Below, piece after piece: positions 11,801-56,830 of a stretch of 64,000 bases of DNA. The position numbers and the translations under genes were made by a program. This DNA is from Beroe forskalii (Eukaryota > Ctenophora > Nuda > Beroida > Beroidae), in assembly GCA_011033025.1 (NCBI GenBank), contig WFMF01000262.1, positions 62,001 to 126,000 of the forward strand. The letters are read 5' to 3'. Each line of letters starts with the position of its first letter. Positions within the stretch are counted from its first letter, which is position 1. The notes beneath the pieces were generated by a model, which had not been told where the DNA came from, searched no databases, and saw nothing but the letters and a program-made list of their open reading frames with translations.

Positions 11801-13172
11801 TGATTCTAATCTTTCAAAAGGGAAGTAAATATTATTAAATCTGGAAAAATACAATATGAATTGTGGGCAAAACTAAATGAGAACCTAGAATAACCAAATT
11901 TTCATGGATTACCTCGTTGTCACGAATTGTACTGACATCTCTTATGATATCTTCAAATTGCTTGTCTTGCTCCTTTTGCTTTTGATTATGGAGTGCAATC
12001 TTTTCCTCGAACTTTCTGGGATTCTGATTCATCCTGGAGCAGGTTTTCTTGCATCTCTTACTAACATTCCTCAAGAGGGAGCTATTATCTACTATAAATC
12101 AAAATCAAACTATCAAACAATATCATACAATAAATATTTTAAAATTAATAATAAATATAATTGTTACCCTATAGTGTTATTACTTTTTGAATTTTTGAGC
12201 AATTGTAATCATGTTACATCACAATACCAAGCAGTTGAATTACTGTTCAAGTGTGTAACTGTGTAAGTACACTGTTGAATGAAGGGTTTAGTAACAAGTG
12301 ACAAGTGCAAACCATAATATTAAGCATGAGTGTCAAAAGCCCAAGTGTGCTTAATGTAATATTGCATTAAGACTTTAAAAACTGAGGCAGAAGGCTGAGG
12401 ATTTTATTGCAGAGGTTTGTACTTCTAAATTTGGTCAGTTCTAAATTTGTGAACTAAAGATGTGTATTTGGATTAAAAAGAAATCTTTTTTCAAGACATC
12501 AATATGCAAGACTTTACACATATTGTTAATTCAATGCAAATCTAGCCCCAGTAGATTGTAAAATGGGATAAAAAGTTTATTTACTTGTTTCACTGATATC
12601 CTTGTTTTACTTAAAATTTGATTTGATCATCAATATTGACCTAAATGACAAGCAAAACAAGTTTGCAGCTCATATCTTGAAAAATGTGGCCAATGTGCCT
12701 ACTTTTGGGTCCAAATTAGGCCAACTGCCACTTTGGCGCATGTGCTTTGTAAGGCCATAACTTGGCTATTTTTCATCTGCTTCTGACAAACAAATACATT
12801 AAGATGATCAGCCAGTTGAAATAAGGTGCTTGTTTAAAATATTATTAAAAACTGTATTCGTAATGTTGGACCTATGGACTCAAAACCACTGTCAAAATTT
12901 TGGTACATGCCCATTGCCCAGGCCATCCTGGCCAAGTGTAATCCCAAAATCTTGTTTTTTTCCAATTATTGGGGGTGAACTTCTTAAATTTTCAAGAGAA
13001 ATGAGGACAAGATAGTGGGGGGGAGTCTACGAGGAGAGTCAAATATTATAAAGCTAGAAAAAACACCAAACATTAATGATGGATGGTGCATCACAACTAC
13101 AGAATTACAGAATGAAATAATAAAATGATAAAATCTGATAAAATTTAGGAAAGGAGAGTGATGTTAAAATAG

Positions 13173-14476
13173 GTAAGGAAAATATGCATATTTGAATTAA
13201 AAAGAAATCTCAATTCAATGCATATTATTCTTCAAAACACTTCATGCAACCTACCTTTCAACAGAACCTGTTTTATCTGGGTGGCCCTATCAACAGATTT
13301 TTAATTTGGCTTGGTGCCTGCCCTCAGCATAACCCAGCAGCCTCTTACTCTATAATATATAAATACAATAGAAGGGGAAAGAGTATATTTCAATAATTGT
13401 GCTGTAAAATTTTATAATTGAATTGAATTGAACATATGAAGACACATTTGCAATAAATATAGTGAATTTAATCATCATTTGAGTTCTAAACTCTGTTAAG
13501 TACCACATAATTTTGATTGGGTTTCTTTAGAAAGTTTTGAACTTTTATCATGCCATTGCTAAACACGTATATCCCTGTGTGGCTCGCGCGGCGCGCTTCC
13601 CCAGGGAAGCGCGCGGCGCGCGTACACACACCTATGCGGGCTTAGGAAATCATGCCAATTTGCGTTTTAAAACCTGTTTGCGTCATGCGCGGCGTGCTTT
13701 CTCGGAAAATAGAGATGAGCTGCATTTTTAATTATAAATTTAAACAGGTTTAATTCTGTTAGCGGTAGAATGGTTAAAAAATGATTTTATTTTTGTCCCT
13801 AGGGCCATGAATCCAAGAAGAGCTGATTGAAAAAAAGCCAGTTAAATAAAGGATTGCCCGCCCTAACCAGATCTTAGATCTAACCAGATCCCTAGTTTTA
13901 CGCGCACGCCGGCACGCCGCGCTTTGTCGTTTCGCGAGACCCCTGGTTAACCAGCGCCTTATTCTGCGCGCGCAGCCGCAGCGCGCCGTCGTTCAATCGT
14001 TCATTCTCAGAATAGGCCGTAGGCCGCGCGCGCGTAAGCACCTGGTTAGGTTTGCCAAACGTTGCAGTTGCCTGGCCCCCTGCGAGCGCGAATTTTGCTT
14101 TAGCCCAACATACTTTGGCCAGTCTCATCTTAAAATAAATCATAGTTATCTTACAGACGCGGCTGGCGTCAGCGGGTCACATCCTGATCATACATTGACA
14201 CATTGTACGAAAAAATCATAGTTTTTAACATCTTAACATCTAGCTCGTTTGTCTTGAAATTTCAAGTTTATTCAGCTGCACCACGCCTCAGAAAATCATG
14301 TATACCCCAATGAAAAATCAAAATAGTCCACCAGTCTATTGCATTTGATTTTTGGAAAATTCAATTAATTTGGAAAAATTGGAAAAATTGTTGAGCTTTC
14401 TCGTTTCCTTCTAAATGAAAAATACATTCAAAAATGACCAATTTTGTTTTAAAAAAGCAAGAAAATTTCCAAAGAA
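13173..14476. other. Spacer beside arm B; GC-rich repeat fragments, no gene
   Basis: AT-rich sequence with two GC-rich islands. At 13555-13650 a palindrome (GCGCGGCGCGCTTCCC / GGGAAGCGCGCGGCGC) is followed by TACACACACCTATGCGGGCT. At about 13900-14110 there is text such as TTGCCTGGCCCCCTGCG. Both are shared with 54780-55300, so they belong to a dispersed repeat family. No conserved protein seen. Confidence 0.55.
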
Positions 14477-27109: not shown

Positions 27110-27236
27110 TATTCGTCCCAATTGTCCCAAATGTCCCAGTTGTCCCAATTGTCCCAAAAACCAGTCCCAAACTCAAAAAAAAGTTAATTGGGACAGGGAC
27201 AATTGGGACATTTGGGACACTGATACTCCCCCCCCC
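27110..27236. repeat. GTCCC/GGGAC inverted array next to arm A
   Basis: Same element as 18880-18992: GTCCCAATTGTCCC units, an A-rich linker, then GGGACAATTGGGAC units ending in CACTGATACTCCCCC. It abuts the inner breakpoint of arm A at 27237. Confidence 0.85.
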
Positions 27237-27555
27237 CTATTTTAACATCACTCTCCTTTCCTAAATTTTATCAGATTTTATCATTTTATTATTTCATTCT
27301 GTAATTCTGTAATTCTGTAATTGTGATACACCATCCATCATTAATGTTTGAGTGTTTTTCAAGCTTTATAATATTTGACTCTCCTTGTAGACTTCCCCCC
27401 CCCCCACTATCTTGTCCTCATTTCTCTTGAAAATTTAAGAAGTTCACCCCCAATAATTGGAAAAAATAAGATTTTGGGATTAGACTTGGCCAGGATGGCC
27501 TGGGCATGTATCAAAATTTTGACAGTGGTCTTGAGTCCATAGGTCCAACATTACG

Positions 27556-27774
27556 AATACAGTTTTAAACTTTACAACACTACTTTATACTATCAAATTT
27601 GAGAAGGTGTTGAGGCTGCTCCTCGGAGATCCTGAAGATGATTCATAGCTTTTCATAAAGTCAATCTTAAAGTTATGTTTCGAAACTGTCAGTTGATATT
27701 GTGGAGTAGTTATTTGGCTTGAATCATAATTGTTACTTTCAATGAAAGACAGCAGTTTTATTAAATACAGTTTT
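27556..27774. mobile_element. 0.2-kb insertion with AATACAGTTTT target duplication
   Basis: AATACAGTTTT occurs at 27556-27566 and 27764-27774, and arm B has a single copy at the matching site. The inserted ~200 bp contains GATCCTGAAGATGATTCA and CGAAACTGTCAGTTGATA, similar in reverse to text near 17840-17880. This suggests a small dispersed non-autonomous element. Confidence 0.75.
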
Positions 27775-28147
27775 TAATAATATTTTAAACTAGCACCTTA
27801 TTTCAACTGGCTGATCATCTTAATGTATTTGTTTGTCAGAAGCAGATGAAAAATAGCCAAGTTATGGCCTTACAAAGCACATGCGCCAAAGTGGCAGTTG
27901 GCCTAGTTTGGACCCAAAAGTAGGCACATTGGCCACATTTTTCAAGATATGAGCTGCAAACTTGTTTTGCTCATCATTTAGGTCAATATTGATGATCAAA
28001 TCAATTTTTAAGTAAAACAAGGATATCAGTGAAACAAGTAAATAAAGTTTTTATCCCATTTTACAATCTACTGGGGCTAGATTTGCATTTAATTAACAAT
28101 ATGTGTAAAGTCTTGCAGATTGATGTCTTGAAAAAAGATTTTTTTAA

Positions 28148-29283
28148 ATCCAAATACACTTACTTACTTTGGGGTGGAACGGTAAATTCAGCCGAAGCCC
28201 TACAAACCGTGCCGTCAGGAACAACCTCTGCTGGCTGCGCCTAAGGCTCCCTGAGATATACAATATTAATACTACCAATATGATATGCTGCGACGATCTT
28301 CCCGGAGCCTAGATGATCGTCGCCATCCTGCAGCTTGCAATCCCTTATGGAGCAAGTCCAAAAGAGAAGACAGAGACCAAACTGCAGGGTGTAGTACCTG
28401 AGAGGATTCGCAAACTAGGAGTGCTTTGACCTGGAGATATGATCTATTAAGTGGGAACTGGGAATAGGAATCGAAGTCGCTTTAACTGAGACCAGGTCTA
28501 AGTGCAAAGAAGATACTGTTGTTATTAATCAGTCAAAACTTCTGAGAAACAAATCTGTACTTTCCTAAGTTGTGTTATCTGACTGCCATTAAATGCAAAG
28601 GGCCCCGGGATGTTACTAGGAGTTAGGACTGAGTGTTGATGCCTAACCAGAGAGGTTATTAAGGCAGCTATTTTCTGTCCTGTAGAGAAATGTGTTATGA
28701 AATCTAGGACGATTTGACTAAGAAACTATCTGCTAAATAAATACTGTATGTGGGAATCATAACTAAATGTTGGAGTTGCTAAGTGGTGAAAGCTCGATAC
28801 AAAGCCTCATTACCAGACAAACTTATAGGGTGCTGGGGGACATTTCCTGATAGTGGTAGAAGAATATCTCCCACTACCTCGAGATACTATAGGTCTCTTC
28901 CTGGTGAATCTGCATGTCCTGCGTTGCATCTAGATGTCTGAAGTCTGTGCCAACAGCAATCAGCATCCTACGGCTGCTCCATGTAGCTGATAGCACACTA
29001 ATTTGCATCATCAACCGCCTGATAGAGTGATAAATGCTTTTCCCGTGTAGGACTTCCTGCGTAACGTTAAATTTTCCTGGGTATTCGGGCTGGCTCATGG
29101 CTCATTGCCAATAGCAGTGGATCCTTTGCAGGAAAGCTAGCCTTTCTTTGAGAAAGAAACTGGTCCAAGAGTATCTTGGTCTGCGTCCTGTTGATGTAAG
29201 ACTGAGGTAGTCCAAACCTTTTGGAATCTTCCTTAGCTGTTTCCTATTTCGTTACAGTTGCCTGACGATAGATCCAAATACAC
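28148..29283. mobile_element. 1.1-kb insertion with 12-bp target duplication
   Basis: ATCCAAATACAC flanks both ends (28148-28159, 29272-29283); arm B has it once, with no insert. The element contains a 9-bp stem hairpin GCGACGATC / GATCGTCGC at 28290-28323 near one end. Minus-strand frames such as 28874-29098 show no known domain. A truncated non-LTR element, inserted in minus orientation, is likely, but the family is not identified. Confidence 0.8.
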
Positions 29284-29704
29284 ATCTTTAGTTCACAAAT
29301 TTAGAACTGACCAAATTTAGAAGTGCAAACCTCTGCAATAAAAACCTCAGCCTTGGCCTTAGTTTTTAAAGTCTTAATGCAATATTACACACTTGGGCTT
29401 TTGGCACTCATGCTTAATATTATGGTTTGCACTTTTCACTCATTACTAAACCCTTCATTCAACAGTGTACTTACACAGTTACGCACTTGAACAGTAATTC
29501 AACTGCTTGGTATTGTGATATAACATGATTACAATTGCTCAGAAATTCAATAAGTAATAACACTATAGGGTAATAATTATATTTATTATTAATTTTAAAA
29601 TATTTCTTGTATGATATTGTTTGATAGTTTAATTTTGATTTACAGTAGATAATAGCTCCCTCTTGAGGAATGTTAGTAAGAGATGCAAGAAAACCTGCTC
29701 CAGG

Positions 29705-29824
29705 ATGAATCAGAATCCCAGAAAGTTCGAGGAAAAGATTGCACTCCATAATCAAAAGCAAAAGGAGCAAGACAAGCAATTTGAAGATATCATAAGAGAT
29801 GTCAGTACAATTCGTGACAACGAG
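29705..29824 (+). CDS. CRTC: CRTC exon 1: CREB-binding domain
   Basis: Forty codons ending phase 0 at AACGAG|GTAATC. NPRKFEEKIALHNQKQKEQ followed by FEDIIRDVSTIR is the conserved amphipathic helix that contacts CREB and DNA in the family. The upstream in-frame sequence (TGCAAGAAAACCTGCTCCAG) lacks an ATG and may be 5' UTR or an acceptor. Confidence 0.93.
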
Positions 29825-32800
29825 GTAATCCATGAAAATTTGGTTATTCTAGGTTTTCATTTAGTTTTGCCCACAATTCATATTGTATTTTTTCCAGATT
29901 TAATAATATTTACTTCCCTTTTGAAAGATTAGAATCATTTGATTTTTAACATTATTTTCAGTGCAATCAGTTTCGTTCATTACCAAACATCCATGGACCC
30001 CCTCCTGGCATGTACCCTTATGTAAGTCTCTAATATTGCTAAGGCACTTCCATTACCTGTGGGGAACTCTGAAAAACCCTGATAGTATACCTACAAAAAT
30101 TGGCCAATAGAGTTTTTTGAGGAATTAATCAATAAAATTTAGCACATTTTTAGTAGTACTTGCAGATTTCAATCCTGCTAAACACCAAACATAATAGTCA
30201 AAGTTTTCCGAAAAAGTGGATATGAAAAAATCAAAACAGGGTTTATTAAATTATTGGGATTTATGGTTTTTTTGGTGTGGCTCCCTTAAGAACTAATTTA
30301 GCAGTTTTTATGAAGAAATATGGAATTATTCATTTTTCCTAAGTGTAATCAACACCTTCTACTTTTCAGAATGTTCCCTTCAATGTTCCTGTCACCCATA
30401 TGGAAAATTTTAGGACAGGTATGTACTCATGTTTTCATATGCAAGTATGAAGAAGTGATTATTGGTTCTGCAGGTATCATTAAGGCTAAAACTATTTTAT
30501 ACCAATGCTAGCTAACCATGCTAGCTAACCATGTAACCATGTAACAAAACTAGTTGTATGATATGTGAGTTTGGTAGTTCCAGCCATGTTTATTAATCAT
30601 GCACAATTTTTGTCTAAAGCCAAGTTCACAAACCTATGAAAAGCTTGTTTCATTACGATCATAATAGAGCTTCATCCACTTAGTAAAGATTCAAACTGGA
30701 AATTTGTTGTTGCTGAAAACCTGCGGTGGGGTACTATACCCTTAACATATGATAACATAAGGTTTTGAAACAAAATATAATCAATACAAAGAAGTATTTA
30801 AATAAAACCACTCATACTCATGCATGCCAATTAAAGCAGGTGCCCGCTGATCATTGACATGGCCTGATTGCCACTGTTAGAAAATCATACACACTCTAAT
30901 CCAGCATGTAAAATCAATAATCGCAAAATATTATCATGCTCATCGTCCAAGGCAAGTGTCAGGCTCAGCATTTTGTGAATCTGAGCAGAAAACTTCTCAG
31001 TTTTCACACTCCGATGAGCTGATGCATTAGCAATACACTGATCTCTCGGCAGAGTCGTAGAGGTGGGGGATAGGACAGTCTGAGATGGCTGTATTGCCTG
31101 TGTTGATGAGGGTGTGGTGTGCGACTGGCTTAGAGTTCGTCAAGCTAGCAGTCCCTGTGATTAACATAAGAGAGTTAGATCCGATCACTCTTTCTCTGCT
31201 GCATACTCACATACTGTTCCATTACTGATGAAGTGGTACCTGCCAGGCTCGCTGCTGATTTCTCCTTCATCTGCATCACGAGTACTTTCCTCCCTTTCTT
31301 CCGGGCACCTATCAGGAGAGACTTACACATCACTGTACAACGGGATTGGCGCAGATTCTTTGCATTTAAAACCTTTGGTCACATCTCACATTCTTCATCA
31401 TATTAGTTTATCAAGTTGTCAATATCATCAACATCGTTCTCTTATATTATTTTAATACCTTCCCGTACTTTATAACATGAGAAATGGCTATTACCTTGTC
31501 TGTGTATTTTTTATCCAATGAGCTAATATACGGAATTAAATTTTTCAGGTACAGTATATCTGCTATCATTATCCAACTATCTAACTATAATATGCAATTT
31601 CAGACATCCATCAAGGACTAAATCTGCAACTGCCAGAAACCCAATCTCGCAGGTAATTTGGATATTCAACAATACAGTAATCTAAACAAGCTGCTTAATC
31701 ATTTACATTTCATTCGTTTGTGAATGCATGAAGGCGTGGAGTAGTTTGGATAAATTCAGTTGTTGCCAATTGATTTTACAGCTTTACAGGATAAGAGGAT
31801 ATTACTAGGGCATTGGAACTTTCACATTTTCTTAAATTTTACCAAATCACTTAGTTAAGTAGTTAAACAGTTAAACTCCCAATCCTTGTTTCAGAGTTTT
31901 GTCTGATTCACAGTTGCACAAGTCAGGGGAACGGGAAAGTGATGAGGACAACTGGAACAACCATTCGGTAAGTTTCCTTATCCTTACTAGTTACTTGAAG
32001 ACAATTCAATGATTTAAATAGGTAATACGAAAGTGAAATCTCATCTTACTGGTCTGCTCAAGTTAACTGGTGGAATACCTAGGTATTCATTTTCTCAGTC
32101 ATCTGTGGACTTTTTGACTCAGAAATGTAAAACAGTCAAGGGGTTTTTATCATGGGGTACATAGAGATAATAGAATTTCTGACAGTTTGACAATTAAAGG
32201 ACAGGGGTATATTGTATTACTAATTACACATTTTGTGTTATTGCACATGTACTGTACACTTTCTCAGCTAATTGGGCAGTGTGCTGAATGACTATTGACT
32301 AATGACCCATATCCATGTATATCTGTGTGAAATGTCAGATATAGTATTGAAATGTCAGACATATTAAAATATCAGTAGACCATTTCTTTTGGACTTATTT
32401 GGAATTTCATCTAACTGAAAGTTTAATAATTCACTATGCCTTGTAAAGCAATGCTTTTAAAGATTTGTTGAGTGCATCGTTTTATAAAGCAATTCAAATG
32501 ATTGGATGTTATTAATATTCAACGGCCAGTTAAACACGAATATAGGAGAAGTTATGACATTCTGAAAATGTGTGGGGGTGTATATTGTATTGTATTCTGC
32601 AAATTTTGCTTGACGGATCTTGCTGATTGTGTACAGTTCAAGATAAGTGCACAATCCACCTTTGCTCGTTGCACTACCGTATATGATCTGTACTAGTACA
32701 GTCTCCGGTCTGCTTTATTATTTGTCTAGTATTGCTGTTAGACTCCATAAGAGACAATGATCTTTAGAGTAGATGCTGTTTTCTTCCATCTGATTAAGTT

Positions 32801-35800
32801 CTTGAAATAATCCTTAGCACAACCTAACCGTTGGACTTTTGTCCTGACCATAATATTACCATACTGTTCTATTCACTATTCAACCGGATTTAAATTACTT
32901 GAATTTGATATTGATAAAGTCCAAAATTTCAGCTTCCGAGACCCAAGTCAGCACTCAGCGTTAAGTGAGTACATCTTGATTATTATAATATTTTCTGGAA
33001 TCACTGGATATTCAACTCATTCTTCAAATTTATTTTCCGCTCAAACTTTTAATGTTCTACTGAATGGAATAGACCACATGGGACACCGTAGACTTTTTGT
33101 TTTATTTATAAGAATGTCAGTACTTAGTATTGAGCTAAAAGACTTCATTGTACATTGATATTCCAGTTATGCGATACTTACATCAACTCAATAACTCATG
33201 TTTACTTTCATTAGAGTACCTTAATTTAAGATGATTTACTGCTGATTAGAGATTAAATAGATGAATGTGTTTCATTATTTTACCAGCCTAGCGTCCTCAC
33301 TGACCTCCTCTTAAGAGGGTGCCTTCTCACGCCTTCTCATACTCCGAGCCCTCCTATTTGCCCTCTTTTCGGCCAAAATTGCCCTCCTTTTTGACCCTTC
33401 CCAAAATACACCAAAGATTCACGGCCTTAAATAGGTTTATTTTGTGGGCGGTTTCCAAAAAAAAGGTCGACCATATATTTCGGAAATACACCTAATAAGC
33501 TAGATATCTCGGATTGATTTGTTGATCTACTTTTAGTGAATGTACCTAATACTCCTTGAAATACACCCATGATTTTGAGAACACACCTGACAAGCACTAT
33601 CTCGGACCACAGTACAGAAGCACTGTAATCAGATCAATCCATAATCCATATGACCATATGTCTATAGTTAGTAGTTTCTATACCAGCAGCTACCGATATA
33701 GATGAGTTTTTACATCGTGCAACACACGCATCTAGATGTACATTGTACATTGTACACACAACATACACGTGTAACTGTGTATCAATGGTAAACAAATCAT
33801 ATGTCCGCTGCTTGTTGTTCAACTCTCATGGTTATAAACATTGTGATATTGTTACAGCTCACAACAGATTATAAGTACAGTGCTATTATAGACCTGCGTT
33901 TCCAAGGTCTGCGTACTCCGTATGTTTTGTGTAATGCTGTGTTTAGGTTGACTGCGTTTAATTTGATCTGTGTTTACTGATATCATCACAAAGTATGGTC
34001 CATCTCTATGCAGATGACACACAGATTTACTTTTCCTTTGATGTTCATAGTCCTTCACCTGACCTTACTGCTATAAAAAAGTGTTTTGTTGATGTTAAAG
34101 CCTGGATGACCAATAACTTCTTAAAGCTTAATGATGAAAAGACCGAATTCATAGACATTGGATACTATGTTAGTCCAATTGAATCCCTTGAACTGAGTGA
34201 ATCTGCTTCAAAAATCTCTGTTTGTCCTGTTTTAGCTACAAAGAACCTTGGATTTTATTTTGATCACAGGCTTAGCATGGAGGATCAAATTAATCACATT
34301 TCTCAAATATGCTTCCTGAACTTAAGGAATATTAGACGAATTGGAGCAAGACTGACACATGATTTGAAAGTGCAACTTGTTCATGCACATATACTGTCTA
34401 TGATAGACTATTGTAACTCTTCATATGCTCACATCACAGAGAAAAATCTTCATAAGCTTCAAAAGATTCAGAATAATGCTGTCAGGTTTATATTCAAGCT
34501 TACTGGTAAAAGGAAATGGACATCAATAAGTCCTTATTTGAAAGAATTGCATTTTCTGCCCGTTGTTTACAGAGTAAAGTTCAAGACTGCACTATTAGTG
34601 TTTAAATGCATTAACAACTTAGCACCTAAGTACTTATGTGATCTTATATCAGTGAGAGACACAAAGAGAATTAGTGTTAGACTAGACAATGATTTTTTTC
34701 TTTTAAAAATACCTTCTAAATCAAACTTTTCGAGGACTGAGGCAGCATTTATATATAATGGTCCAAGTACTTGGAATAGCTTACCTTACTCAATCAGATG
34801 TAAAGCTGATATTTTAGAGTTTAAAGTTCATTTGAAAACCTACTACTTTAACCTAGCTTTTAGTGATACTTGATAGATGATTTATCTAAGCTGTTTACCT
34901 CATTTTGTATCTGGCCTATCATAGCTAACTGGTACTATGCGTATAGTTATAGTAATATCTAGGTATTTGTGACTCTGTGGTTTTCTGAGTTCTTAGTTCT
35001 ATAAGTTTGTCACGCTTAAATGGCTAAAATATTTCCCTCTCTGATATTTATTTGACGATGTCTAGGCGTGTAAGAAATGTTTTAATTTATTTTATTTATT
35101 ATTACTGTGTTTAGGTTTACTGTGGTCTGTGTTCACTTGTTCAGGGTTAGCTGTGTGGACAGTAATGTGTGGTGTGTACTGTGTAAGACACTGAAAACTT
35201 CATGGAAAGAAAAACATATCTGTAGCTCTGTAGATATAATCTGGTGTATCTTTTAAAAACGATGTTAATCCTGACTTTTAGTTATTAAGCCCACCGTATC
35301 TTATATCAGGAATCATTCCTATTAGATGTAAAATTCACATGACCGTTTAAACAGGCAATTAGTTAAATTCGCAATATATTATATAATAACTGTCGTTCTA
35401 GGTTAAATGCAATGTATGTAACTTAGTATAATATTATAACTTTCATTTAATGTGAGTTATTGAAATGCTGATGACAACTTGTTAATGTAATATATATATT
35501 AATACTTTACACCAAATAATATACCTGACCATATATATTATTTTGTACACATATATATAATATATTTAATAATTTGTAGAACACGCCACACACGCATATT
35601 AAAGAATAGAATATATAATATATATTGTTGAACTTTGTAACGGAGGTAGGTGGGTGTCTTGATAGAATTTATTAATATATACGTATTAATTGTAACCTTC
35701 CATAGATAATTTACCAAGACAGTTATTAAATTGCAAGCAGGATATTATTGTTGTAGTAGTGTACCGTGCACATTGTCAAATATATAACTCTTCAAGCTCC

Positions 35801-38800
35801 AGCGCTGAGAACTGGTTTTAAACTGAGAACTGCTGCAAATTAACTTGATACATATTTGAATTTAGTTCTCAACTTTAAAACGCTATAGATGGGCAGATCT
35901 CTCCAAATTGACCTCTTCTTGGATATTTTTTCATCTGTAAGTTTGGCGTGCTATGAGAGGCTCAGTTGTGAGGCGCCCTCTTTTCCCTTTAGTCTGCATT
36001 AATCTCTGATTTCACGATAATTTTCACCTTTGGCACTCACATTCCCTCTCCTTTCAACTCTTCTCTTTTGATGCCCCACTTCAACTCTTCTCTTTTGATG
36101 CCCCACTCACATTCCATTCCTTTCAACTCTTCCCTCTTTTGATGCCCTCACTCACATCCCCTCTCCTTTCAACTCTTCCCTCTTTTGATGCCCCACTCAC
36201 ATCCCCTCTCATTTCAACTCTTCCCTCTTTTGATGCCTCACTTACATTCCCTCTTCTTTCAACTCTTCCCTCTTTTGATGCCCCGCTCACATTCCCTCTC
36301 ATTTCAACTCTTCCCTCTTTTGATGCCCCACTCACATCCCCTCTCCTTTCAACTCTTCCCTCTTTTGATGCCCTCACTTACATTCCCTCTCCTTTCAACT
36401 CTTCCCTCTTTTGATGCCCCACTCACATCCCCTCTCCTTTCAACTCTTCGCTCTTTTGATGCCCCAACTCACATCCCCTCTCCTTTCAACTCTTCGCTCT
36501 TTTGATGCCCCAACTCACATCCCCTCTCATTTGCAGGTCCTACGAAGGAAACATCGCCACAAAGACAATCTCCCTGCCGGATCTATCCCAGAACTACATA
36601 CCTGTGCAGGACGAAAGCTACAGTCAAAATGTGAGTGCCTACAGTCAGTCGAAATGTAAGGTAGTCATAGAAGTGAGAATAGTTATAGAATTAAGGAGAA
36701 AATGCTACTTTCATTCAATAAGTTCCGGTTTGTGTATTTGGGGAGCCCTGACATTACGTCATCATTGTTTCAGCCTTTGTTAACCCCCTCCCTCCCCTCT
36801 GTCATCATCAGCAGACCCCTCCTCATGCTGACGTCAGCATTGACCAATCTCCCCAACTTTAAATCAAATCTTTGATGAAGCAAATTTTCAGTTAAATTGT
36901 GATTATTTACCTTAGACTCTTAGATGTACATTGCATTTGTAACATTTGTATGGAATTAATAGTTTATAAGCAACCATATTCATAAATCTAAAATGATTTA
37001 AAAGGATGAAATTACAACTTTAAGAGTGGGATTGTGGATTTTTTGCTGAAGTCAGCAAAGCCCATACCCCCTCCCCTTTGTCATCATTTGGAAACCCCCT
37101 CCCCCTTTGACGTGATATGTGACGGCTCCCTTGTCAGTTTGTGTGTACCAAAAATTTCGAAACTTGATCGTAATTAGTTTTCTTCGTATTTTCGTGTCGG
37201 TTGTTCAGTGACAAAGTGGGTGTAGTGTATTGCGAAAGGAGTTCCAAGTTCTTATTTAGGAAGTGCACGGTGTAGGTACTATAGTGGCTATTTGGCACTT
37301 TATCAGCTAAATACTGATTACTGAGGTATATACCTTTGTGTAGAAAGTTTTTCTTGCTTTGTGCAGAAGTCTCAGTAAGTACTTAAATAGCAGCAGTGAG
37401 TATTTATTTACACCCACATACGTTCAAAAGAGTAGCTTGATCTGCTTAAAAGGGAAAAATACTTGATTATTATTGTTTTATTGCCTGCGATTCATTGATG
37501 ATAAAAAACTTTGTGCCTTAAGGGGGCAGGGGGGGGTCTTCGGGGTGTCGATGGCCAAAATGGACTTTTTGACTAGAAATGATAGAAGAGCATCGTAGCT
37601 ACCAGAAAAACTTTACGGAGTGAAAAAATCTTGTTCCTAGCCTGAGTTATGCGATTTTGAAAATCGGAATTTGCCTGTAATTACAGTACGCGCGCGAAAT
37701 TCAATCGCGATTTGCCGAAAATGATCTTAAAAATCTATCTCCTCCTACATTTTTGGAGAATCGTCCTGAAACTTTCCAGATATGTTCTAGGGATTAAAAT
37801 GAAGAGATTTGTTTAGTAGATTTTTGATTTAGGCCTCAGAACCGAAAATATTCGATTTTGAAATTTTGAACCCGACAAAAATCATCAAAATTTGGCACCT
37901 CGAAATTTCAAAATCGAATATATTCGGTTCTGAGGCCTAAATCAAAAATCTACTAAACAAATCTCTTCATTTTAATCCCTAGAACATATCTGGAAAGTTT
38001 CAAGACGATTCTCCAAAAAATGTAGGAGAAGATAGATTTTTAAGATCATTTTCGGCAAATCGCGATTGAATTTCGCGCGCGTACTGTAATTACAGGCAAA
38101 TTCCGATTTTCAAAATCGCATAACTTATGCTAGGAACAAGATTTTTTCATTCCGTGAAGTTTTTCTGGTAGCTACGATGCTCCTTTATCATTTCTAGCCA
38201 AAAACTCCATTTTGGCCATCGTCACCCCAAAGACCCCCCCCCCCTGCCCCCTTAACTGTGTGATTGTTAATGACAATTTCGTTACTTTCATGGATGTTAA
38301 TTTTACCTTAATTGGTAGTAGGATATCTTTATATTATATTTAGCTTGACAAATTCCAACTCGTTTTATATTTTTAAAGCTTTTAGTTCTGTTTAACGATT
38401 TGAGCATTCTTCACTGTAACATTCACGAAGCTATCTACTGAACATCAATGAGGCATGAGTTTCCCGGAACTTGATCTCATACTTAACATTAATTTAATGT
38501 TCTATTCCTTTTGGGGGAGTTTATGGGCTAAGTAGCTGACACGAAGGTAATTATGCTCATTTTTTTGCTATTTTTGGATACCACCCACCTCCCCGGGACC
38601 CCACCCACGTTAAATTCTGTCTGATTTTATGTGATTTTTGAACGACGATTAGGGAGTTGGAACCACCACCAAATTTGGAACAAGATAACGCATCTGTAAG
38701 GGAAAATCTTTATAAAGTTATTGCCAAACTGTATATCAGCCTACTCGCAATGCAGTGCAAAGCTTCATCCTGGGTTCAATTCCCCTGAATTTTTCAACTC

Positions 38801-47800: not shown

Positions 47801-49323
47801 TTTAACAACTCATCACTATTGACAAATCTCCAACAACAACCGGCAATAACAATAACAAGGACAATTTGAACAATGGAGAAGGCTCTATTTATCCCCTCCT
47901 TCCCGCAGATAGTTTGAGAATGGGCGGCCACCACCCCAGCCACCAGTTCCCCCTACCCCAGCACCCTGGTGGCGCCGCAGGCGGTTACTTCATGTCAATC
48001 GACGAGGCGACAGCTTCTGAGCTGAAGCACAGAGTGAGACAATACAGTCCTTCACCGCCCGCCACACCCCAAATGAACTACACTGTAAGTATAATCTACT
48101 AGTCCACTACGTAATTTGGATGTTACATCATGTGTGTATCAAAGAAATATCTGATCGATTGATCCGATTGATGGTTCTCAAAGACTTTGCTATTAATTAA
48201 GGAAATGGAAGAACTGACTTTGATTTGTGAAACTTCAGTTCGGATCGCCTAACGCCAACTACCAGCGGATGACTGCGCAAATGCAGGAGTTCAACCTGCA
48301 CTCGCCCACCAATCAGATGGGAATTCACAGTGGCAACTGCTCGCCGCACAGTCACACGGACCAGCCCTCGCCTGATGTGAGCGATGGAAATGTAATATCT
48401 TTATATGCCTTCCAAAATTGATGAACAATTTTCTTTTGCGACTTCTTTACAGTTGTTTTTCAAAGTCTCAATCTCCATCAGGTGTACGACATAAAGCCTG
48501 GTATCGAGGAGTCTATCCCTCAGTCACAACCTCAGTACATCAACTACTACCACAGTCAGCCCACTACTCCTCAAGACGCATCAAGTTACAGCAACCCGCC
48601 TTCAATACCCAAAATACAGGTAAATAGCCCGCCTTCAATACCCAAAATACAGGTAAATAGCCTGCCTTCAATACCCAAAATACAGGTAAATAGCCTGCCT
48701 TAAATACCCAAAATACAGGTAAATAGCCTGCCTTCAATACCCAAAACACAGGTAAATAGCCTGCATTGAATACCCAAAATACAGGTAAATAGCCTGCATT
48801 GAATACCCAAAATACAGGTAAATAACGTGCCTTCAATACCCAAAATACAGGTAAATAACCCACCTTCAATACCCAAAATACAGGTAAATAGCCTGCATTC
48901 AATACCCAAAATACAGGTAAATAACCCACCTTCAATACCCAAAATACAGGTAAATAGCCTGCATTCAATACCCAAAATACAGGTAAATAACGTGCCTTCA
49001 ATACCCAAAATACAGGTAAATAACCCACCTTCAATACCCAAAATACAGCCATACAGGTCAAAAACCCAAAATACCGAAATTATAAATAACACACTCCCCC
49101 GCAGGTTTACACCCCAGAAGAGGCCCTGTCGCCCCAGTACTTCCCCCCGGACGATGACATGGACGGTGCTGGAACGTCCGACATGAGCGAGTACCTCCTG
49201 AACTTCGAGGCGGAGCCCCAGGCGCCCCTCCTGCATGGGGGAGGGGTGGAGGACCTGGTGCAGGGTGGCAGCTCCATGGACTTGTACCACGGCACGAACT
49301 TCCAGAACTACCCGTACTCCTGA
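29705..49323 (+). CDS. CRTC: CREB-regulated transcription coactivator (CRTC/TORC), 12 exons
   Basis: The protein binds the CREB bZIP domain and recruits the transcription machinery; in the family, SIK kinases hold it in the cytoplasm through 14-3-3, and calcineurin releases it. Exons: 29705-29824, 29962-30021, 30370-30418, 31604-31652, 31895-31967, 32933-32964, 36537-36630, 40737-40770, 47909-48084, 48239-48376, 48482-48619, 49105-49323. All introns are GT-AG and all phases agree, giving 393 residues (vertebrate proteins are about 630-690). Residues 1-40 hold NPRKFEEKIALHNQKQ, the diagnostic CREB-binding helix. RRVLSDSQLHKS (about 92-103) matches the SIK/14-3-3 site. RPKS follows near 120, then SLPDLS (exon 7), Q/P/S-rich exons 9-11 and an acidic C-terminus. 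The start is the first in-frame ATG, just before NQNPRKF. Extra short exons or other 5' exons cannot be excluded. Confidence 0.93.
30022..30369 (+). other. CRTC intron 2
   Basis: Ordinary AT-rich intron, nearly identical in arm B. Nothing else seen. Confidence 0.6.
30419..31603 (+). other. CRTC intron 3, with an open frame of unclear status
   Basis: Contains a 75-residue frame (31228-31455) that would follow exon 3 in phase if the acceptor CCTGCCAG at about 31244 were used (SLLISPSSASRVLSS). It is preserved in arm B. It ends in a stop and cannot continue into exon 4, so at most it is an alternative terminal exon. Confidence 0.4.
31604..31967 (+). CDS. CRTC: CRTC exons 4-5: SIK / 14-3-3 regulatory site
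   Basis: Exon 4 (31604-31652) and exon 5 (31895-31967) join in phase 2 to give ETQSRRVLSDSQLHKSGERE. The R-R-x-x-S-D-S-x-L-H core aligns with vertebrate RRTNSDSALHQS, whose central Ser is the main SIK phosphorylation site. The joining codon (AG|A) encodes the second Arg, so correct splicing builds the kinase motif. Confidence 0.88.
31968..32932 (+). other. CRTC intron 5
   Basis: AT-rich. This is the empty site of the 2.65-kb arm B insertion (near 32330, AGATATAGTATTGAAATGTC). No gene. Confidence 0.55.
33980..35107 (+). mobile_element. 5'-truncated LINE fragment in CRTC intron 6
   Basis: Insertion into the AAACACAG minisatellite with a short TTACTG target duplication (33974-33979, 35102-35107); arm B has the empty site. 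The 292-residue open frame 33995-34873 begins at the RT catalytic box (LYADDTQIYFSF). It continues with WMTNNFLKLNDEKTEF, LGFYFDHRLSMEDQI and LKELHFLPVVYRVKFK, the C-terminal RT and tail of Jockey/CR1-like LINEs. The frame is intact, so insertion is fairly recent. The 3' end is TTTATT-rich. The upstream endonuclease and RT fingers are missing, so it is not autonomous. Confidence 0.9.
36045..36531 (+). repeat. Pyrimidine-rich 46-bp minisatellite before exon 7
   Basis: About ten units of CTCTTTTGATGCCCCACTCA plus CATCCCCTCTCCTTTCAACT run up to the acceptor TTTGCAG of CRTC exon 7. The array effectively lengthens the polypyrimidine tract. Arm B has about half as many units. Open frames here are repeat artefacts. 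Confidence 0.85.
36537..36630 (+). CDS. CRTC: CRTC exon 7: SLPDL motif
   Basis: Phase 2 in, phase 0 out; encodes SYEGNIATKTISLPDLSQNY and IPVQDESYSQN. ISLPDLSQNYIP aligns with GSLPDLTNIHFP of vertebrate CRTCs. This exon is frameshifted in copy B. Confidence 0.88.
36741..37130. mobile_element. MITE in CRTC intron 7, TTG target duplication
   Basis: Ends GGGAGCC.. and ..GGCTCCC with TGACGTGATATGTGACGG subterminally, flanked by TTG on both sides. C/T-rich and G/A-rich blocks carry TCATCAT and TGACGTCA. It is the arm A copy of 1835-2204 and shares design (GGGA, TCACATAT, ACGT) with 20680-21122. Confidence 0.75.
37518..38255. mobile_element. 0.74-kb near-perfect palindrome at TTAA
   Basis: Two arms of about 350 bp are inverted copies differing at few positions, separated by about 35 bp (centre near 37890). 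The outer ends read TTAAGGGGGCAGG and CCTGCCCCCTTAA, so TTAA flanks both sides, as at piggyBac-type insertion sites. Non-coding. The arms contain TACGCGCGCGAAATTCAATC. It lies in CRTC intron 7, just outside the arm A breakpoint. Confidence 0.9.
38256..39650. other. CRTC intron 7, no gene seen
   Basis: AT-rich with C-rich runs (38840-38860) and a CGGCTTCGCCCCGAG-type small repeat near 39055. No recognised element. Confidence 0.4.
39660..39953 (+). pseudogene. Reverse-transcriptase-associated fragment
   Basis: A 97-residue frame with ILDLNIKIVNQQFIVGVYNK, RDDFPFNLVQNMSKCSNIS and FGSQLIRFFRI. The order D-L-x-I ... Y-x-K-R-D-D-F-x-F ... S-N-I ... S-Q-L-I-R is familiar from the C-terminal part of RT proteins in many invertebrate retroelements. 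It lies in sense inside CRTC intron 7 and stops early. Family assignment is from memory of the motif pattern. Confidence 0.5.
40737..40770 (+). CDS. CRTC: CRTC exon 8 (34 nt microexon)
   Basis: TTTCAG|ATCCTGCACCAGCAC ... GTGCCCG|GTAAGA encodes ILHQHYQDGVP plus the first base of an Asp codon completed by exon 9 (phase 1). Phase agreement with exons 7 and 9 is the main support. No homologous motif is recognised. Confidence 0.75.
40797..41010. mobile_element. Palindromic MITE-like repeat
   Basis: ATTCAGACCTCGTGTTGC (about 40880) and its inverse GCAACACGAGGTCTGAAT (about 40970) enclose an imperfect stem. The outer sequences TTCAATACGTG and its inverse extend it. It starts soon after CRTC exon 8. 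Confidence 0.65.
41171..43400. other. CRTC intron 8, first part
   Basis: No gene seen. A pair GAAACTCTCGG (42800) / CCGAGAGTTTC (42882) suggests a small inverted-repeat element. Confidence 0.4.
43419..43579. promoter_or_regulatory. Two full palindromic CREs in CRTC intron 8
   Basis: TGACGTCA occurs at 43419-43426 and 43572-43579. The surroundings of the second (GGTTGAGATGACGTCATTATC) reappear inverted near 50138-50190. CRTC works through CREB at CREs, so feedback control is conceivable. This is inference from motif only. Confidence 0.35.
43991..44175. mobile_element. 180-bp MITE with AACGATCGTAACACTTTTCGG ends
   Basis: ACGATCGTAACACTTTTCGG at about 44001 and its exact inverse at about 44142-44164 flank a short AT-rich core with an internal CACTATTAGTCTAATAATGG palindrome. 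Non-coding. Confidence 0.8.
44229..44405 (-). pseudogene. Unrecognised coding-like minus-strand segment with frameshift
   Basis: Starting at ATG 44405, one frame reads MANELEAFKMALGEFLAQFP then DKPPVPGYTPSNSNS. The adjacent frame then reads YSTGVLNEGLEYVDYTDPNC and DPC before TGA. Both halves have GC-rich third positions unlike the surrounding AT-rich intron and look like one protein broken by a single extra base near 44300. It lies antisense inside CRTC intron 8. No family recognised. It could be a terminal exon of a nested gene, a processed remnant or a sequencing error. Confidence 0.4.
44570..46510. other. CRTC intron 8, middle part
   Basis: No recognised gene. The 114-residue frame at 44778-45122 (+) has no familiar motif and normal AT-rich composition. 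Confidence 0.35.
46520..46665. repeat. CGCAGTTCTGTTACTGAAACT tandem repeat
   Basis: About five units of GCAGTTCTGTTACTGAAACT, each semi-palindromic (AGTT ... AACT). A T-rich low-complexity stretch follows (46665-46860). Confidence 0.85.
46666..47908. other. CRTC intron 8, last part
   Basis: A poly-T/TTTTA tract, then AT-rich sequence with no recognised gene; 46876-47145 is an open frame without known motifs. The intron ends in a strong acceptor, CCCCTCCTTCCCGCAG, at 47908. Confidence 0.45.
47909..48376 (+). CDS. CRTC: CRTC exons 9-10: Q/P/S/H-rich central region
   Basis: Exon 9 (47909-48084) starts in phase 1, completing the Asp codon. It encodes SLRMGGHHPSHQFPLPQHPG, a glycine run, then SIDEATASELKHRVRQYSPS. 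Exon 10 (48239-48376) encodes FGSPNANYQRMTAQMQEFNL followed by S/H/P-rich sequence. Low-complexity Q/P/S regions are typical of CRTC central and activation regions. An open frame upstream of 47909 is ignored because of the excellent acceptor and phase fit. Confidence 0.87.
48482..48619 (+). CDS. CRTC: CRTC exon 11
   Basis: VYDIKPGIEESIPQSQPQYI then NYYHSQPTTPQDASSYSNPP and SIPKIQ. Phase 0 at both ends. The final PSIPKIQ joins exon 12 VYTPEE, giving IPKIQVYT, which lines up with vertebrate IPNIILT. The donor ATACAG|GTAAAT is the first copy of a tandem repeat. Confidence 0.87.
48597..49060 (+). repeat. 33-bp minisatellite duplicating the exon 11 splice donor
   Basis: About 14 copies of CTTCAATACCCAAAATACAG followed by GTAAATAGCCTGC. 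The first copy is the end of exon 11 plus its donor. Each later copy repeats the donor ATACAG|GTAAAT. Because 33 is a multiple of three, donors at 48653 and 48686 would add 11 or 22 residues (VNSPPSIPKIQ type). A TAA at 48701-48703 ends the frame in the next unit. Open frames on the opposite strand are artefacts of the repeat. Confidence 0.93.
49105..49323 (+). CDS. CRTC: CRTC exon 12: acidic C-terminal activation region
   Basis: Acceptor CTCCCCCGCAG|GTTTACACC. Seventy-two codons: VYTPEEALSPQYFPPDDDMD, GAGTSDMSEYLLNFEAEPQA, ending NFQNYPYS and TGA. Clusters of D/E with hydrophobics (YLLNFE) fit a transactivation segment. The exon is markedly GC-rich compared with the introns. Confidence 0.88.
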   Translation, partial: VYTPEEALSPQYFPPDDDMDGAGTSDMSEYLLNFEAEPQAPLLHGGGVEDLVQGGSSMDLYHGTNFQNYPYS

Positions 49324-51250
49324 GGGGCTGACTCCTCATTCGAGCTGGGGTTGAGTTACTGTACGGGCTCTGGAGTCACGCCCCTATCATTATGTGAAGA
49401 AAGTGTGTGTATGATTGAGTTATATAAAAAGATGATTTTTAGATCATTTTCACTTAATGCTGACTATGGCACGCCTTATTACAATACGAATGTAATTTAA
49501 CCTGGAAGTTTTGTTTTATATAGCTACTAATAATATAATATCCATGTAAAAAGGTAGAGCTTATTTTTATCCGCACCAATATTATTAATCACTGTGATTC
49601 GTCTGGAACTATCCGTGGCCCATTGTGAATCAGCCATTTTAGTGCGCTGAATGAAACCGGTCTATAGATCCTATACAACTTTTTCACTTTTTAAACCGTT
49701 TTATTCCAAATTGAACGAAATCTCTCATTCCAACTTCCAGGCGGTATTGCTGAACAGCTCGTTCAAGTTGTCCTGGTTAAAATATCACGGCATCAATCAA
49801 TCATTGAACTCTTACTTTGCATAGAGCATTGGATATATTAAAATTCATCTCGAATGGGATCCCAACTGAATATCATTTTGAGAATAGATAAAAACGAGAT
49901 AAGAACGTCTCCGTTTTGGAGTATTATATATAAATACGTGTTAGCTGATGCATTGTAACTATAGATTGACTTTATACTAGCTTGCGGCAGCATGTGTTGT
50001 AGTAGAAATGCTGTAGAAGGTTAATATAATATTAACATGGTTTGTACTCTTCTGAGATCTTTAGCAGAACCCGTTCTAAGACCTGAGCGCAAGAAACAGG
50101 CGGTTTGGCGACAACATAGCACCTTGCGTCGTGATAATGACGTCATCAACCGGCTCCTTTGTGCTATGACATGACGTCATCTCAACTGTGGATTGTTAGG
50201 CCGGGTTCTGCGGTACGAACTGCTTTATGAAGGAGGTGCCGCACACGTACAAACATGGAGGGGACTTAAAAGAGAAACAAAATGTGGCAAGGGAATCTTA
50301 ACTCTTCAGTAACAGTATGGTCTTCATCTTAACTTAGAATTGCGAATGATGTTGCGAAATAGTCCAACGTTCGTTACGTTACATTTTATCTATGTTCGTG
50401 AAAAATGTATTTTGAGCTCATGACTTATTGAGAAAAATGTCCAAAATTTTACCATCTTGATGTTACACCCTGAATTTAATGAAGCCTATTTTGACTAATA
50501 GTTAAACAAAGTTAAGGTGAAACTTCTTTATAATTATGTTTATAATTATTGGCTTACCTATTGGCAATAGTTTACTACAGAGCGGAGAACATATCATTTT
50601 TATGAGTTAACCGTATGCCTATTTTGTGAACAACGAAGGTGCATGAGAATATAGAATTTTAAATGTATTTAAAGTATCATCAAAACTTATTTCGGGGCAG
50701 GTTTTTGCAGAAACTTTCATCCCATCTGATGTTTGAGAGGGGCGAGCCGACTGTACACATGATAAAAATTGGATAATCTCGAGAAATCGTTGCTAGGGTC
50801 TCTTCTCATTAAAATACTGTCAGCCACTGACTTACTCTTTTTCCCGGCAGCCTCCGATTTGGCAGCCCACTCACTGAAAACAGTGAAAGTACCGGTTTAA
50901 CCCCTTTCATACCTTCGAATACGTAAATTGAAAATCTTTCACAACCAAGATTATGCCGGTTCTATTATTATTTTGCGCTAAATTTATTAGTTTTTTATGA
51001 GAATGTTCTTATTTCAAGAGGTTGTTAATTGTAAGTATATAATACATTATTAGTAACTGTAAGCTTCCCCTGTTAATACATATAGTAGCGGTCTAATGTG
51101 AACAGCGTGTAAGTCAATGTTTAATTTCTTATAATAATACTTCTTTTAACGTTATTTCCGTGTTTTCATTTGGAAATTCTTCTCATTGAAAAGATAGAAG
51201 TCGCCGTATGGCGTTAACACATTTTACCTTTCTGTGAAGAAACGCGTGCT
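49324..51250 (+). other. CRTC 3' UTR and downstream flank
   Basis: No further gene seen. The poly(A) site is not obvious. Two full CREs (TGACGTCA) lie at 50138-50145 and 50172-50179. Confidence 0.5.
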
Positions 51251-53469: not shown

Positions 53470-54745
53470 ACTGGGTGCTTTTCTTCTCTGAAGAAACTAA
53501 ACGCGTGCTTTTCTTCTCTGAAGAAACGCGTGCTTTTCTTCTCTGAAGAAACGCGTGCTTTTCTTCTCTGAAGAAACGCGTGCTTTTCTTCTCTGAAGAA
53601 ACGCGTGCTTTTCTCTGAAGAAACGCGTCTTTTCTTCTCCTGAAGAAACGCGTGCTTTTCTTCTCTGAAGAAACGCGTGCTTTTCTTCTCTGAAGAAACG
53701 CGTGCTTTTCTTCTCTGAAGAAACGCGTGCTTTTCTTCTCTGAAGAAACGCGTGCTTTTCTTCTCTGAAGAAACGCGTGCTTTTCTTTGAAGAAACGCGT
53801 GCTTTTCTTCTCTGAAGAAACGCATGCTTTTTCTTCTGAAGAAGAAACGCGTGCTTTTCTTCTCTGAAGAAACGCGTGCTTTTCTTCTCTGAAGAAACGC
53901 GTGCTTTTCTTCTCTGAAGAAACGCGTTTTTTCTTCTCTGAAGAAACGCGTGAAGAAACGCGTGCTCTTCTTCTCTGAAGAAACGCGTGCTTTTCTTCTC
54001 TGAAGAAACGCGTGCTTTTCTTCTCTGAAGAAACGCGTGCTTTTCTTCTCTGAAGAAACGCGTTTTTCTTCTCTGAAGAAACGCGTGCTTTTTCTTCTCT
54101 GAAGAAACGCGTGCTTTTCTTCTCTGAAGAAACGCGTGCTTTTCTTCTCTGAAGAAACGCGTGCTTTTCTTCTCTGAAGAAACGCGTGCTTTTCTTCTCT
54201 GAAGAAACGCGTGCTTTTCTTCTCTGAAGAAACGCGTGCTTTTCTTCTCTGAAGAAACGCGTGCTTTTCTTCTCTGAAGAAACGCGTGCTTTTCTTCTCT
54301 GAAGAAACGCGTGCTTTTCTTCTCTGAAGAAACGCGTGCTTTTCTTCTCTGAAGAAACGCGTGCTTTTCTTCTCTGAAGAAACGCGTGTTTTTCTTCTGA
54401 AGAAACGCGTGAAGAAACGCGTGCTTTTCTTCTCTCTGAAGAAACGCGTGCTTTTCTTCTGAAGAAACGCGTGCTTTTCGTCTCTGAAGAAACGCGTGCT
54501 TTCGTCTTCTGAACGCGTGCTTTTCTTCTGAAGAAACGCGTGCTTTTATTCTCTGAAGAAACGCGTGCTTTTCTTCTCTGAAGAAACGCGTGCTTTTCTT
54601 CTCTGAAGAAACGCGTGCTTTTCTTCTCTGAAGAAACGCGCGTTTTTCTTCTCTGAAGAAACGCGCGTTTTTCTTCTCTGAAGAAACGCGTGCTTCTCTT
54701 CTCTGAAGAAACGCGTGCTTTTCTTCTCTGAAGAAACGCGTGCGA
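53470..54745. repeat. Satellite array 1: 25-bp unit with MluI-type ACGCGT
   Basis: About 50 units of ACGCGTGCTTTTCTTCTCTG plus AAGAA. Three units (75 bp) read through all frames, which creates a 468-residue open frame on the minus strand (repeats of KKSTRFFREEKHAFLQRRKARVSSE type). This is a by-product of the stop-free unit, not a gene. The core TTCTTCTCTGAAGAA is an imperfect palindrome. Confidence 0.93.
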
Positions 54746-55480: not shown

Positions 55481-56830
55481 AAGAATTATTCTTCAGAGAA
55501 CTATTCTTCAAGAAACGTGCGCGGGCGCACAATTCTTCAGAGAAGAAAAGTGCGCACAATTCTTCAGAGAAGAAAAGTGCGCACAATTCTTCAGAGAAGA
55601 AAAGTGCGCACAATTCTTCGGAGAACAAAAGTGCGCACAATTCTTCGGAGACCAAAAGTGTGCACAATTCTTCAGAGAAGAAAAGTGCGCACAATTCTTC
55701 AGAGAAGAAAGCTGCACAAAATTCTTCAGAGAAGAAAACTGCGCAAAATTCTTCAGAGAAGAAAACTGCGCAAAATTCTTCAGAGAAGAAAACTGCGCAA
55801 AATTCTTCAGAGAAGAAAAGTGCGCACAATTCTTCAGAGAAGAAAAGTGCACACAATTCTTCAGAGAAGAAAAGTGCACACAATTCTTCAGAGAAGAAAA
55901 GTGCGATCAATTCTTAAGAGAAAAGTGCGCACAATTCTTCAGAGAAGTGCGCAAAATCCTACAGAGAAGAAAATTGATCTCGACACAATTCTTCAAAAGT
56001 AAAATGCTCACAATTCTTCAGAGAAGAAAAGTGCGCACAATTCTTCAGAGAAGAAAAGTGCGCAAAATTCTTCAGAGAAGAAAAGTGCGCAAAATTCTTC
56101 AGAGAAGAAAAGTGCGCAAAATTCTTCAGAGAAGAAAAATGCGCACAATTCTTCAGAGAAGAAAAGTGCGCAAAATTCTTCAGAGAAGAAAAGTGCGCAC
56201 AATTCTTCAGAGAAGAAAAGTGCGCACAATTCTTCAGAGAAGAAAAGTGCGCACAATTCTTCAGAGAAGAAAAGTGCGCACAATTCTTCAGAGAAGAAAA
56301 GTGCGCACAATTCTTCAGAGAAAAAAAGTGCGCACAATTCTTCAGAGAAGAAAAGTGCGCACAATTCTTCAGAGAAGAAAAGTGCGCACAATTCTTCAGA
56401 GAAGAAAATTGCGCACAATTCTTCAGGGGAAAAAAGGTGCACAATTCTTCAGAAAAAAGCGCACATTATCCAGAGAAGAAAAAGGTGCCCAATGCTTCAG
56501 AGAAAAATGCGCGCATAAAAAGCGCACAATTATTCAGAGTGAAGTAGGCAATATTCTTCAGAAATAAATGCACACAATGCTTCAGTAATTTTTGAGTAAA
56601 AACTGAAAGCGCGCAAATCTTCAAAGAATCAAAGTTGAAAATCGTCAAAAACGCTTCATCGAAGAAGAGTGTGCACAAAATACACTTAAGTTTGCAAAGA
56701 AAAGTGCACACAATTATAGAATTTTTCAGTGAAGAAAAGCGCGCACAATTATTCAGAGAAGAAAAGCACGTAAAATTCTTCAGCAAAGAAAAGTGCGCAC
56801 GATTCTTCAGCGAAAAAAGTGCGCACTAGT
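55481..56830. repeat. Satellite array 2: 27-bp unit TTCTTCAGAGAAGAAAAGTG
   Basis: About 33 regular units of TTCTTCAGAGAAGAAAAGTG plus CGCACAA, then degenerate units to 56830. The core TTCTTCAGAGAAGAA is the reverse complement of the core of array 1, so the two arrays form a large inverted pair. A 27-bp unit without stops gives long frames on both strands (up to 400 residues), which are not genes. Confidence 0.93.

Follow-up and report, generated by a model that had tools for sequence, protein, structure and literature searches.

A minisatellite repeating a splice donor at a predicted exon edge of a probable CRTC gene in the ctenophore Beroe forskalii

We identified a minisatellite in a probable CRTC gene of Beroe forskalii that lies across the predicted end of an exon and carries the splice donor of this exon into the following intron. 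The array consists of 14 copies of a 33-bp unit, and the donor core CAGGTAAAT is found in 13 of these. It was analysed within a stretch of 64,000 nucleotides, here called the window, which covers positions 62001-126000 of contig C317 (WFMF01000262.1) in an assembly of 216 Mb and 1134 contigs; positions given without a contig name are those of the window. The array belongs to a known kind of repeat, the so-called mirage, and a NEK-like kinase gene provides a good companion in the same genome. From the analysis as a whole, it is likely that the array is a neutral mirage in which the first donor (donor 1) is dominant. We therefore regard the array as a good natural test of the choice among identical donors, rather than as proof of tuned isoforms.

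Anatomy of the array and its predicted products

Tandem Repeats Finder (TRF) reported a repeat at 48598-49048 with a period of 33, 13.7 copies, 92% matches and a score of 748. Counted by position, the copies number 14 and start at 48597, 48630 and so on up to 49026, giving an array that spans 48597-49048. The unit is made up of 23 bp from the end of the coding exon and 10 bp from the start of the intron. We found 13 perfect ACAGGTAAATA sites, each with the identical donor CAG/GTAAATA, while copy 14 retains the exon part and ends in ACAGCC without a donor. The 23-mer AATACCCAAAATACAGGTAAATA occurs at 13 sites in the window with up to three mismatches, compared with none in 100 shuffles. A 24-mer of the unit was found at the same 13 places and nowhere else in the 216-Mb assembly at up to two mismatches, in a search that leaves out very common words. 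In addition, the region 47840-49330 is single copy in the assembly. A sequence-only reading of this DNA had described a 33-bp unit of exon end plus donor that runs about 14 times into the intron, and TRF, the positional listing and the shuffle test agree with this. The same reading gave every unit an identical donor, which holds for copies 1-13 but not for copy 14, and placed the array at 48597-49060, where the start stands but the end is here moved to 49048. The earlier observation of the array is thus confirmed with small corrections.

The repeated donor departs from the consensus CAG/GTAAGT solely at position +5. With a weight table for donor sites, it scores 8.8 bits, compared with 6.5 and 7.0 bits for the donors of the two preceding exons. 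The 13 donors share their sequence from -16 to +7, bar one base in copy 5. Since the donors are the same in sequence, position or wider context must decide if one of them wins. The features of the array and of the gene model are listed in Table 1.

Table 1. Positions in the window of the donor array and of the predicted gene around it
Feature	Position	Strand	Basis
TORC_N-coding exon, start of the probable CRTC gene	29714-29830	+	Pfam PF12884, E 1.8e-12
Predicted coding exon, CGCAG acceptor, ending ACT/GTAAGT	47909-48084	+	Sequence read, splice sites predicted
Predicted coding exon, 138 nt, ending GAT/GTGAGC	48239-48376	+	Sequence read, splice sites predicted
Second-last coding exon of the model, 138 nt, phase 0, SNPPSIPKIQ end	48482-48619	+	Splice sites predicted
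Minisatellite, 33 bp, 14 copies, across exon end and intron	48597-49048	+	TRF score 748, copies listed
Donor 1, CAG/GTAAAT, presumed authentic junction 48619/48620	48617-48625	+	Sequence
Intron with donor 1 (485 nt; with donor 13, 89 nt)	48620-49104	+	Predicted
Donors 2-13, identical CAG/GTAAAT, one per 33 bp	48650-49021	+	Sequence
In-frame TAA in copy 4, terminates any isoform from donors 4-13	48701-48703	+	Sequence
Intron tail outside the array, holds acceptor CCCCCGCAG	49049-49104	+	Sequence
Final coding exon in the model, encoding 72 residues plus stop (VYTPEEALSP...NYPYS)	49105-49323	+	Sequence

The exon that enters the array comprises 46 codons and is followed, after the acceptor AG at 49103-49104, by the last coding exon. 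Splicing from donor 1, 2 or 3 is predicted to add 0, 11 or 22 residues, all in frame. The insert would be VNSPPSIPKIQ with donor 2, and the same eleven residues followed by VNSLPSIPKIQ with donor 3. Beyond these copies the frame meets the TAA of copy 4, and further in-frame stops are the TGA codons of copy 6 (48767) and copy 7 (48800). With donors 4-13 the TAA sits 15 to 312 nucleotides (nt) ahead of the junction. As a usual rule, a stop that lies farther than 50-55 nt upstream of a junction exposes an mRNA to decay, and donors 6-13 would for this reason subject the mRNA to decay. The frame, computed directly, bears out the earlier claim that the first three donors would add 0, 11 and 22 residues in frame. 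It also supports the predicted truncation by a TAA in the next unit, since this stop lies ahead of the 72-residue last exon.

In line with the suggestion of the sequence-only reading that variation in repeat number could tune isoforms, donors 1-3 might all be truly used, yielding three activator lengths, with donors 4-13 acting as poison and with the number and order of repeats setting the output. In keeping with this, the donors are identical, 33 bp is divisible by three, copies 2 and 3 are open and TAA first appears in copy 4. The insert also repeats SIPKIQ, which stands at the place of the CRTC1 IPNII motif in the single alignment made. Moreover, boundary repeats in human genes have been reported alongside alternative transcripts (PMC2812944). 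On the other hand, divisibility by three has a one in three chance of arising at random, and the other exon-anchored arrays described below have spacings of 43 bp and of 39-47 bp. Two open units without selection are unremarkable, and published mirages are reported to leave splicing normal (PMC3087553, PMC3902484). Taken together, we consider the use of three lengths unlikely. It is rather improbable that the array works as a splicing rheostat, in which 13 donors would compete for one acceptor, giving three activator lengths near a probable activation motif and ten stops, so that repeat number sets the productive share of the mRNA. Under such a rheostat, which we regard as doubtful, the repeat number should change quickly between individuals, and the genome should, with the same doubt attached, hold further loci of the same build.

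Variation within the array was also examined. Among the 13 full copies, seven of the 33 columns are variable, and the chance that none of them hits the 9-nt donor is 0.083, so that finding the same donor in all 13 is unremarkable when taken alone. The variable columns lie, with one exception, in 10 adjacent columns (p 0.02). We considered selection on the donor and rejected it, as the conservation is met by chance at p 0.083 and the clustering of columns is equally explained by conversion of whole unit types. The two parts of the unit have diverged to the same extent, with a mean identity over the 13 copies of 0.923 in the exon-derived part and 0.921 in the intron-derived part. Copy 8 equals copy 13, copy 9 equals copy 11, and two unit types alternate through copies 9-12. 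Unit types that recur in blocks fit block duplication, as in neutral turnover, and nothing in the variation of the array requires selection. The assembly holds one allele of the array; the blocks within it and a second kinase array of another length (see below) suggest turnover as far as sequence comparison can indicate. We also asked whether the copy number or the copy sequences could be unreal through an error of assembly or consensus. The contig does contain a large inverted duplication of the 5' half of the gene, maybe an unresolved haplotype, and the second kinase array (C248:412219) starts in odd-looking sequence. However, seven of 33 columns differ between copies, which is not what simple read-stutter would give, and the locus is single in the assembly. 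Such an error is highly improbable.

Boundary repeats and the choice among identical donors

We infer that the array originated by duplication and that donor 1 is dominant. A minisatellite may have been seeded at the exon-intron junction when 23 bp at the end of the exon and the adjoining 10 bp of intron were duplicated in tandem, and it would then have spread inside the intron by slippage or unequal exchange, bringing the donor into 13 of the 14 copies. The new copies would lie downstream of the presumed authentic junction and, if donor 1 is used, would simply be intron. Donor 1 would be used in nearly all of the mRNA, since it is transcribed first, is nearest to the acceptor of its exon and, alone among the donors, has the full unique body of the exon just upstream. 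Its presumed dominance also draws on a comparison with the mirages in the literature and with the kinase gene, in which use of the second donor would destroy the kinase. The other 12 donors would be silent or give a low-level leak, with donors 2-3 leading to longer in-frame proteins and donors 4-13 to truncated or decayed mRNA.

The name mirage was given to tandem repeats spanning exon-intron boundaries in amphioxus Adh3, and such repeats have also been reported in amphioxus globins, with units of 10-72 bp in Adh3 and 150-160 bp in the globins and with AG/GT signals in many of the repeats (PMC3087553). According to the same report, the Adh3 data together with reverse-transcription PCR of the globins suggested that regular splicing was undisturbed, and the repeats showed instability of length, even in somatic tissue (PMC3087553). 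Mirages have also been described in troponin C, and similar repeats in PGBD5; those of Adh and troponin C are said to make no aberrant mRNA, and the same was suggested for PGBD5 by likeness (PMC3902484). The CRTC unit resembles the amphioxus mirages in that it spans an exon-intron boundary, predicted in our case, is short and has splice signals in most copies, and its 33 bp falls inside the reported range of 10-160 bp. As is described for the mirage of the globin gene BflGb9, the repeated boundary is the one at the 3' end of an exon, whereas the mirage of the globin gene BflGb6 is described as repeating the acceptor side. Copy number is described as variable in mirages, and the array here has 14 copies with 13 identical donors and a unit that is a multiple of three. 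The published mirages are those of cephalochordate genes, while the present array lies in a probable CRTC gene. A family search of the assembly for GFP, a hit to which might have indicated a lancelet, gave no matches, which does not show absence. The passages concerned of a paper on the amphioxus huntingtin gene mention tandem repeats and contain no boundary repeats (PMC2206037). In the related literature we noticed no array of this kind in a CRTC gene, although no search was aimed at it.

Several points weigh against a neutral mirage that is spliced mainly from donor 1. All 13 donors have the same sequence, which gives donor 1 no advantage, and copies 1-3 keep an open, in-frame reading, a feature not required under drift. 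Duplicated-donor work by Eperon and colleagues in 1993 reportedly indicates that, where two strong sites compete, the one downstream can be preferred. The authors of the mirage report noted that the repeated signals could serve as cryptic splice sites (PMC3087553). In addition, when variable repeats lie at the exon-intron boundaries of duplicated genes in humans, they are said to yield alternative splicing by way of novel introns, with 27 intron modifications reported, of which 66% also had support for a transcript keeping the repeat in the exon (PMC2812944). Like the CRTC array, these human repeats are described as minisatellites at exon edges with units of about 30 bp; unlike it, they were studied by comparing recent paralogues with RNA support, and they average about four copies (PMC2812944). 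Because the human study points the other way, our confidence in a neutral mirage is slightly lowered.

If splicing preferred the donor closest to the acceptor, or a range of the downstream donors, most transcripts would stop at 48701 and the gene would be largely off or encode a truncated activator. In duplicated-donor experiments, high U1 occupancy is reported to favour the site farther downstream, and donor 13 would leave an intron of 89 nt, which is a possible length given that the neighbouring intron, just upstream in the gene model, has 105 nt. On the other side, the last coding exon retains an uninterrupted frame of 72 codons. Furthermore, the kinase gene is of the same build, with a donor nearer to the consensus; there the kinase frame stays intact when read through the first donor, and reading through the second leads to a stop. 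We consider a preference for the downstream donors very unlikely.

The array also bears on the model of Rogers, in which introns are gained from tandem copies that hold proto-splice sites, as described in fission yeast and in other genes (PMC4974935, PMC3629103). Under this model, tandem exonic copies would have become an intron whose two splice sites both derive from the copies. Introns of this type and the CRTC array are both tandem repeats with a splice-site core in a coding gene, and CAGGT is present in thirteen of the units. In the model as described, however, the repeat copies supply both ends of the intron, whereas the acceptor CCCCCGCAG lies 56 nt past the array in non-repeat sequence (49103-49104), and hence the array sits inside an intron that has its own 3' end. 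An intron birth of this type is accordingly very unlikely at this locus. Recursive splicing through the AG/GT of each unit was also considered. The units have a poor pyrimidine tract, with 9-11 pyrimidines in the 20 positions before each CAG/GT, but the real acceptor likewise has 11 of 20, so that by its sequence the array might still allow it.

Donor arrays elsewhere in the assembly

Tandem arrays are abundant in this genome. In the window they take up 10.4% of the sequence (16 merged arrays, each 100 bases or longer, with units no shorter than 10 bp). A 304-kb sample, which combined the window with a surrounding 40 kb and with 200 kb from another contig and so was not a random draw, contained 13.8% in 72 arrays under a somewhat stricter filter, with three or more donor-like sites in 11 of the 72. 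As arrays fill about 10% of the window and 14% of the sample, some junctions would be hit by chance. Two large arrays of the window, at 53475-54743 (25-bp units) and 55525-56826 (27-bp units), are inverted relatives of each other, with minus-strand matches of about 66-75% identity over approximately 1.3 kb and 1.0 kb and a shorter piece.

We searched the assembly for three CAGGTAAGT words 10-40 bases apart and obtained 166 matches, compared with 13 for the reversed word; with shorter gaps there were 22 and 5, respectively. The triple CAGGTAAAT word gave 129 matches against 2 for its reverse, and the best 100 of the 129 fall in 13 arrays that include the CRTC array. An excess of donor words in arrays was, however, rejected as a finding of its own, since the rotated non-donor word AAATCAGGT was caught nearly as often (93 matches in 9 arrays, compared with 6 for its own reverse). 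The high count of the rotated control means that reversed controls understate the background, and we therefore claim no enrichment. As single words in the 304-kb sample with the CRTC array masked, donor words were no more frequent than their reverses, with counts of 2 and 2 and of 1 and 4. Most simply, in a genome with so many minisatellites some exon edges will be caught up in them.

We examined six distinct array loci among the best 100 of the 166 CAGGTAAGT matches, and found two of them, C209 and the first array of C248, to be anchored on coding exons. The open frames leading up to and into the first donor, as read in the chosen frame, measure 90 residues at C209 and 45 residues at the first C248 array. 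At C122, C247 and C281, no open frame longer than 28 residues ran into the first perfect donor or the first degraded copy. The array of C343, at 165500-166500 on the minus strand, has a 23-bp unit with 17 perfect CAGGTAAGT sites and lies between two coding-looking stretches, one of which is an RWD-like exon (E 0.015); the longest open frame there is 28 residues.

The first C248 array is found at 399300-401200, where a NEK-like kinase exon encoding AAMLSQLRHINIVSYKHSFQMNGYLHIIMQYCEGGDLHTWLSA(R) ends at 400080. The end of this exon plus GTAAG is repeated at a spacing of 39-47 bp, with 25 perfect CAG/GTAAGT (CAGGTAAGT) sites. The first donor would give an intron of 1094 nt, and the last donor lies 53 nt ahead of the acceptor. 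When the exons are joined at the first donor, they encode a continuous stretch of 79 residues that matches Pkinase with an E value of 6.3e-18. Its best solved relative is NEK1 (E 6.6e-23), with residues 2-79 aligned on 75-152 at equal lengths. Joining at the second donor leads to an immediate TAA. This stop arises where the frame of the kinase exon enters GTAA, and thus every donor except the first would read it. The first of the 25 donors alone is therefore predicted to yield a kinase. A second, longer and partly degraded kinase array, of which the two ends were read, is present at C248:412219-415233; the exon that follows it is kept, and no matching exon was seen before it, where the sequence just upstream is odd-looking. 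We left this array out of the anchored count, as it resembles a degraded copy of the first.

The array on C209 (35500-36500, minus strand) follows a coding exon, and its 43-bp unit combines the exon end with the donor; three perfect donors are present. Splicing from the first of them to an exon downstream would leave an open frame of 96 residues, a product that has no match in Pfam.

A single exon is followed by 13 identical donors in the probable CRTC gene and by 25 in the NEK-like kinase gene, and the question is how the spliceosome chooses at an equal match to U1. In experiments with duplicated donors, the downstream copy reportedly can win. If the first donor alone is used, then position, order of transcription or exon context decides, and minisatellites can cover exon edges at little cost. 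If several donors are used, the repeat number would be a fast-changing splicing dial.

Identity of the gene

The gene is probably a CRTC gene, with weak support for its 3' exons, as judged from sequence matches. A TORC_N exon (Pfam PF12884) at C317:91714-91830 exceeds the curated cut-off. It lies 18.8 kb upstream of the array exon on the same strand, and we infer that the two belong to one transcript. In the gene model as predicted, the array exon is the second-last coding exon. The four 3' exon frames gave no Pfam matches. A profile search of the assembly returned no match for TORC_C, which does not show absence, and a single weak one for TORC_M, on another contig (E 0.69). The product of the four 3' exons aligns to human CRTC1 with a BLASTP E value of 2e-4 without composition correction; among 1000 shuffles of the query, 29 reached the alignment score against the whole protein and 4 against its C-terminal part. 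The alignment sets PSIPKIQVYTPEE opposite SGIPNIILTVTGE, a stretch which we take to be conserved among CRTC proteins, and the junction of the array exon falls within it.

The 5' part of the probable CRTC gene also takes part in an inverted duplication, between 1628-13173 on the minus strand and 27236-37340 on the plus strand. It comprises seven pieces longer than 250 bp, six of them more than 90% identical and one 73% identical, and each side has a TORC_N exon (11907-12023 on the minus strand and 29714-29830 on the plus strand). The duplication may be a genuine palindrome, or else a haplotype left unresolved in the assembly. A paralogue was considered as a view of the ancestral state of the array and set aside, since the inverted copy spans the 5' half of the gene alone and the array exons are single copy. 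Elsewhere in the assembly, C1134:40-1344 matches COX1 with four internal TGA codons, and this contig is probably mitochondrial.

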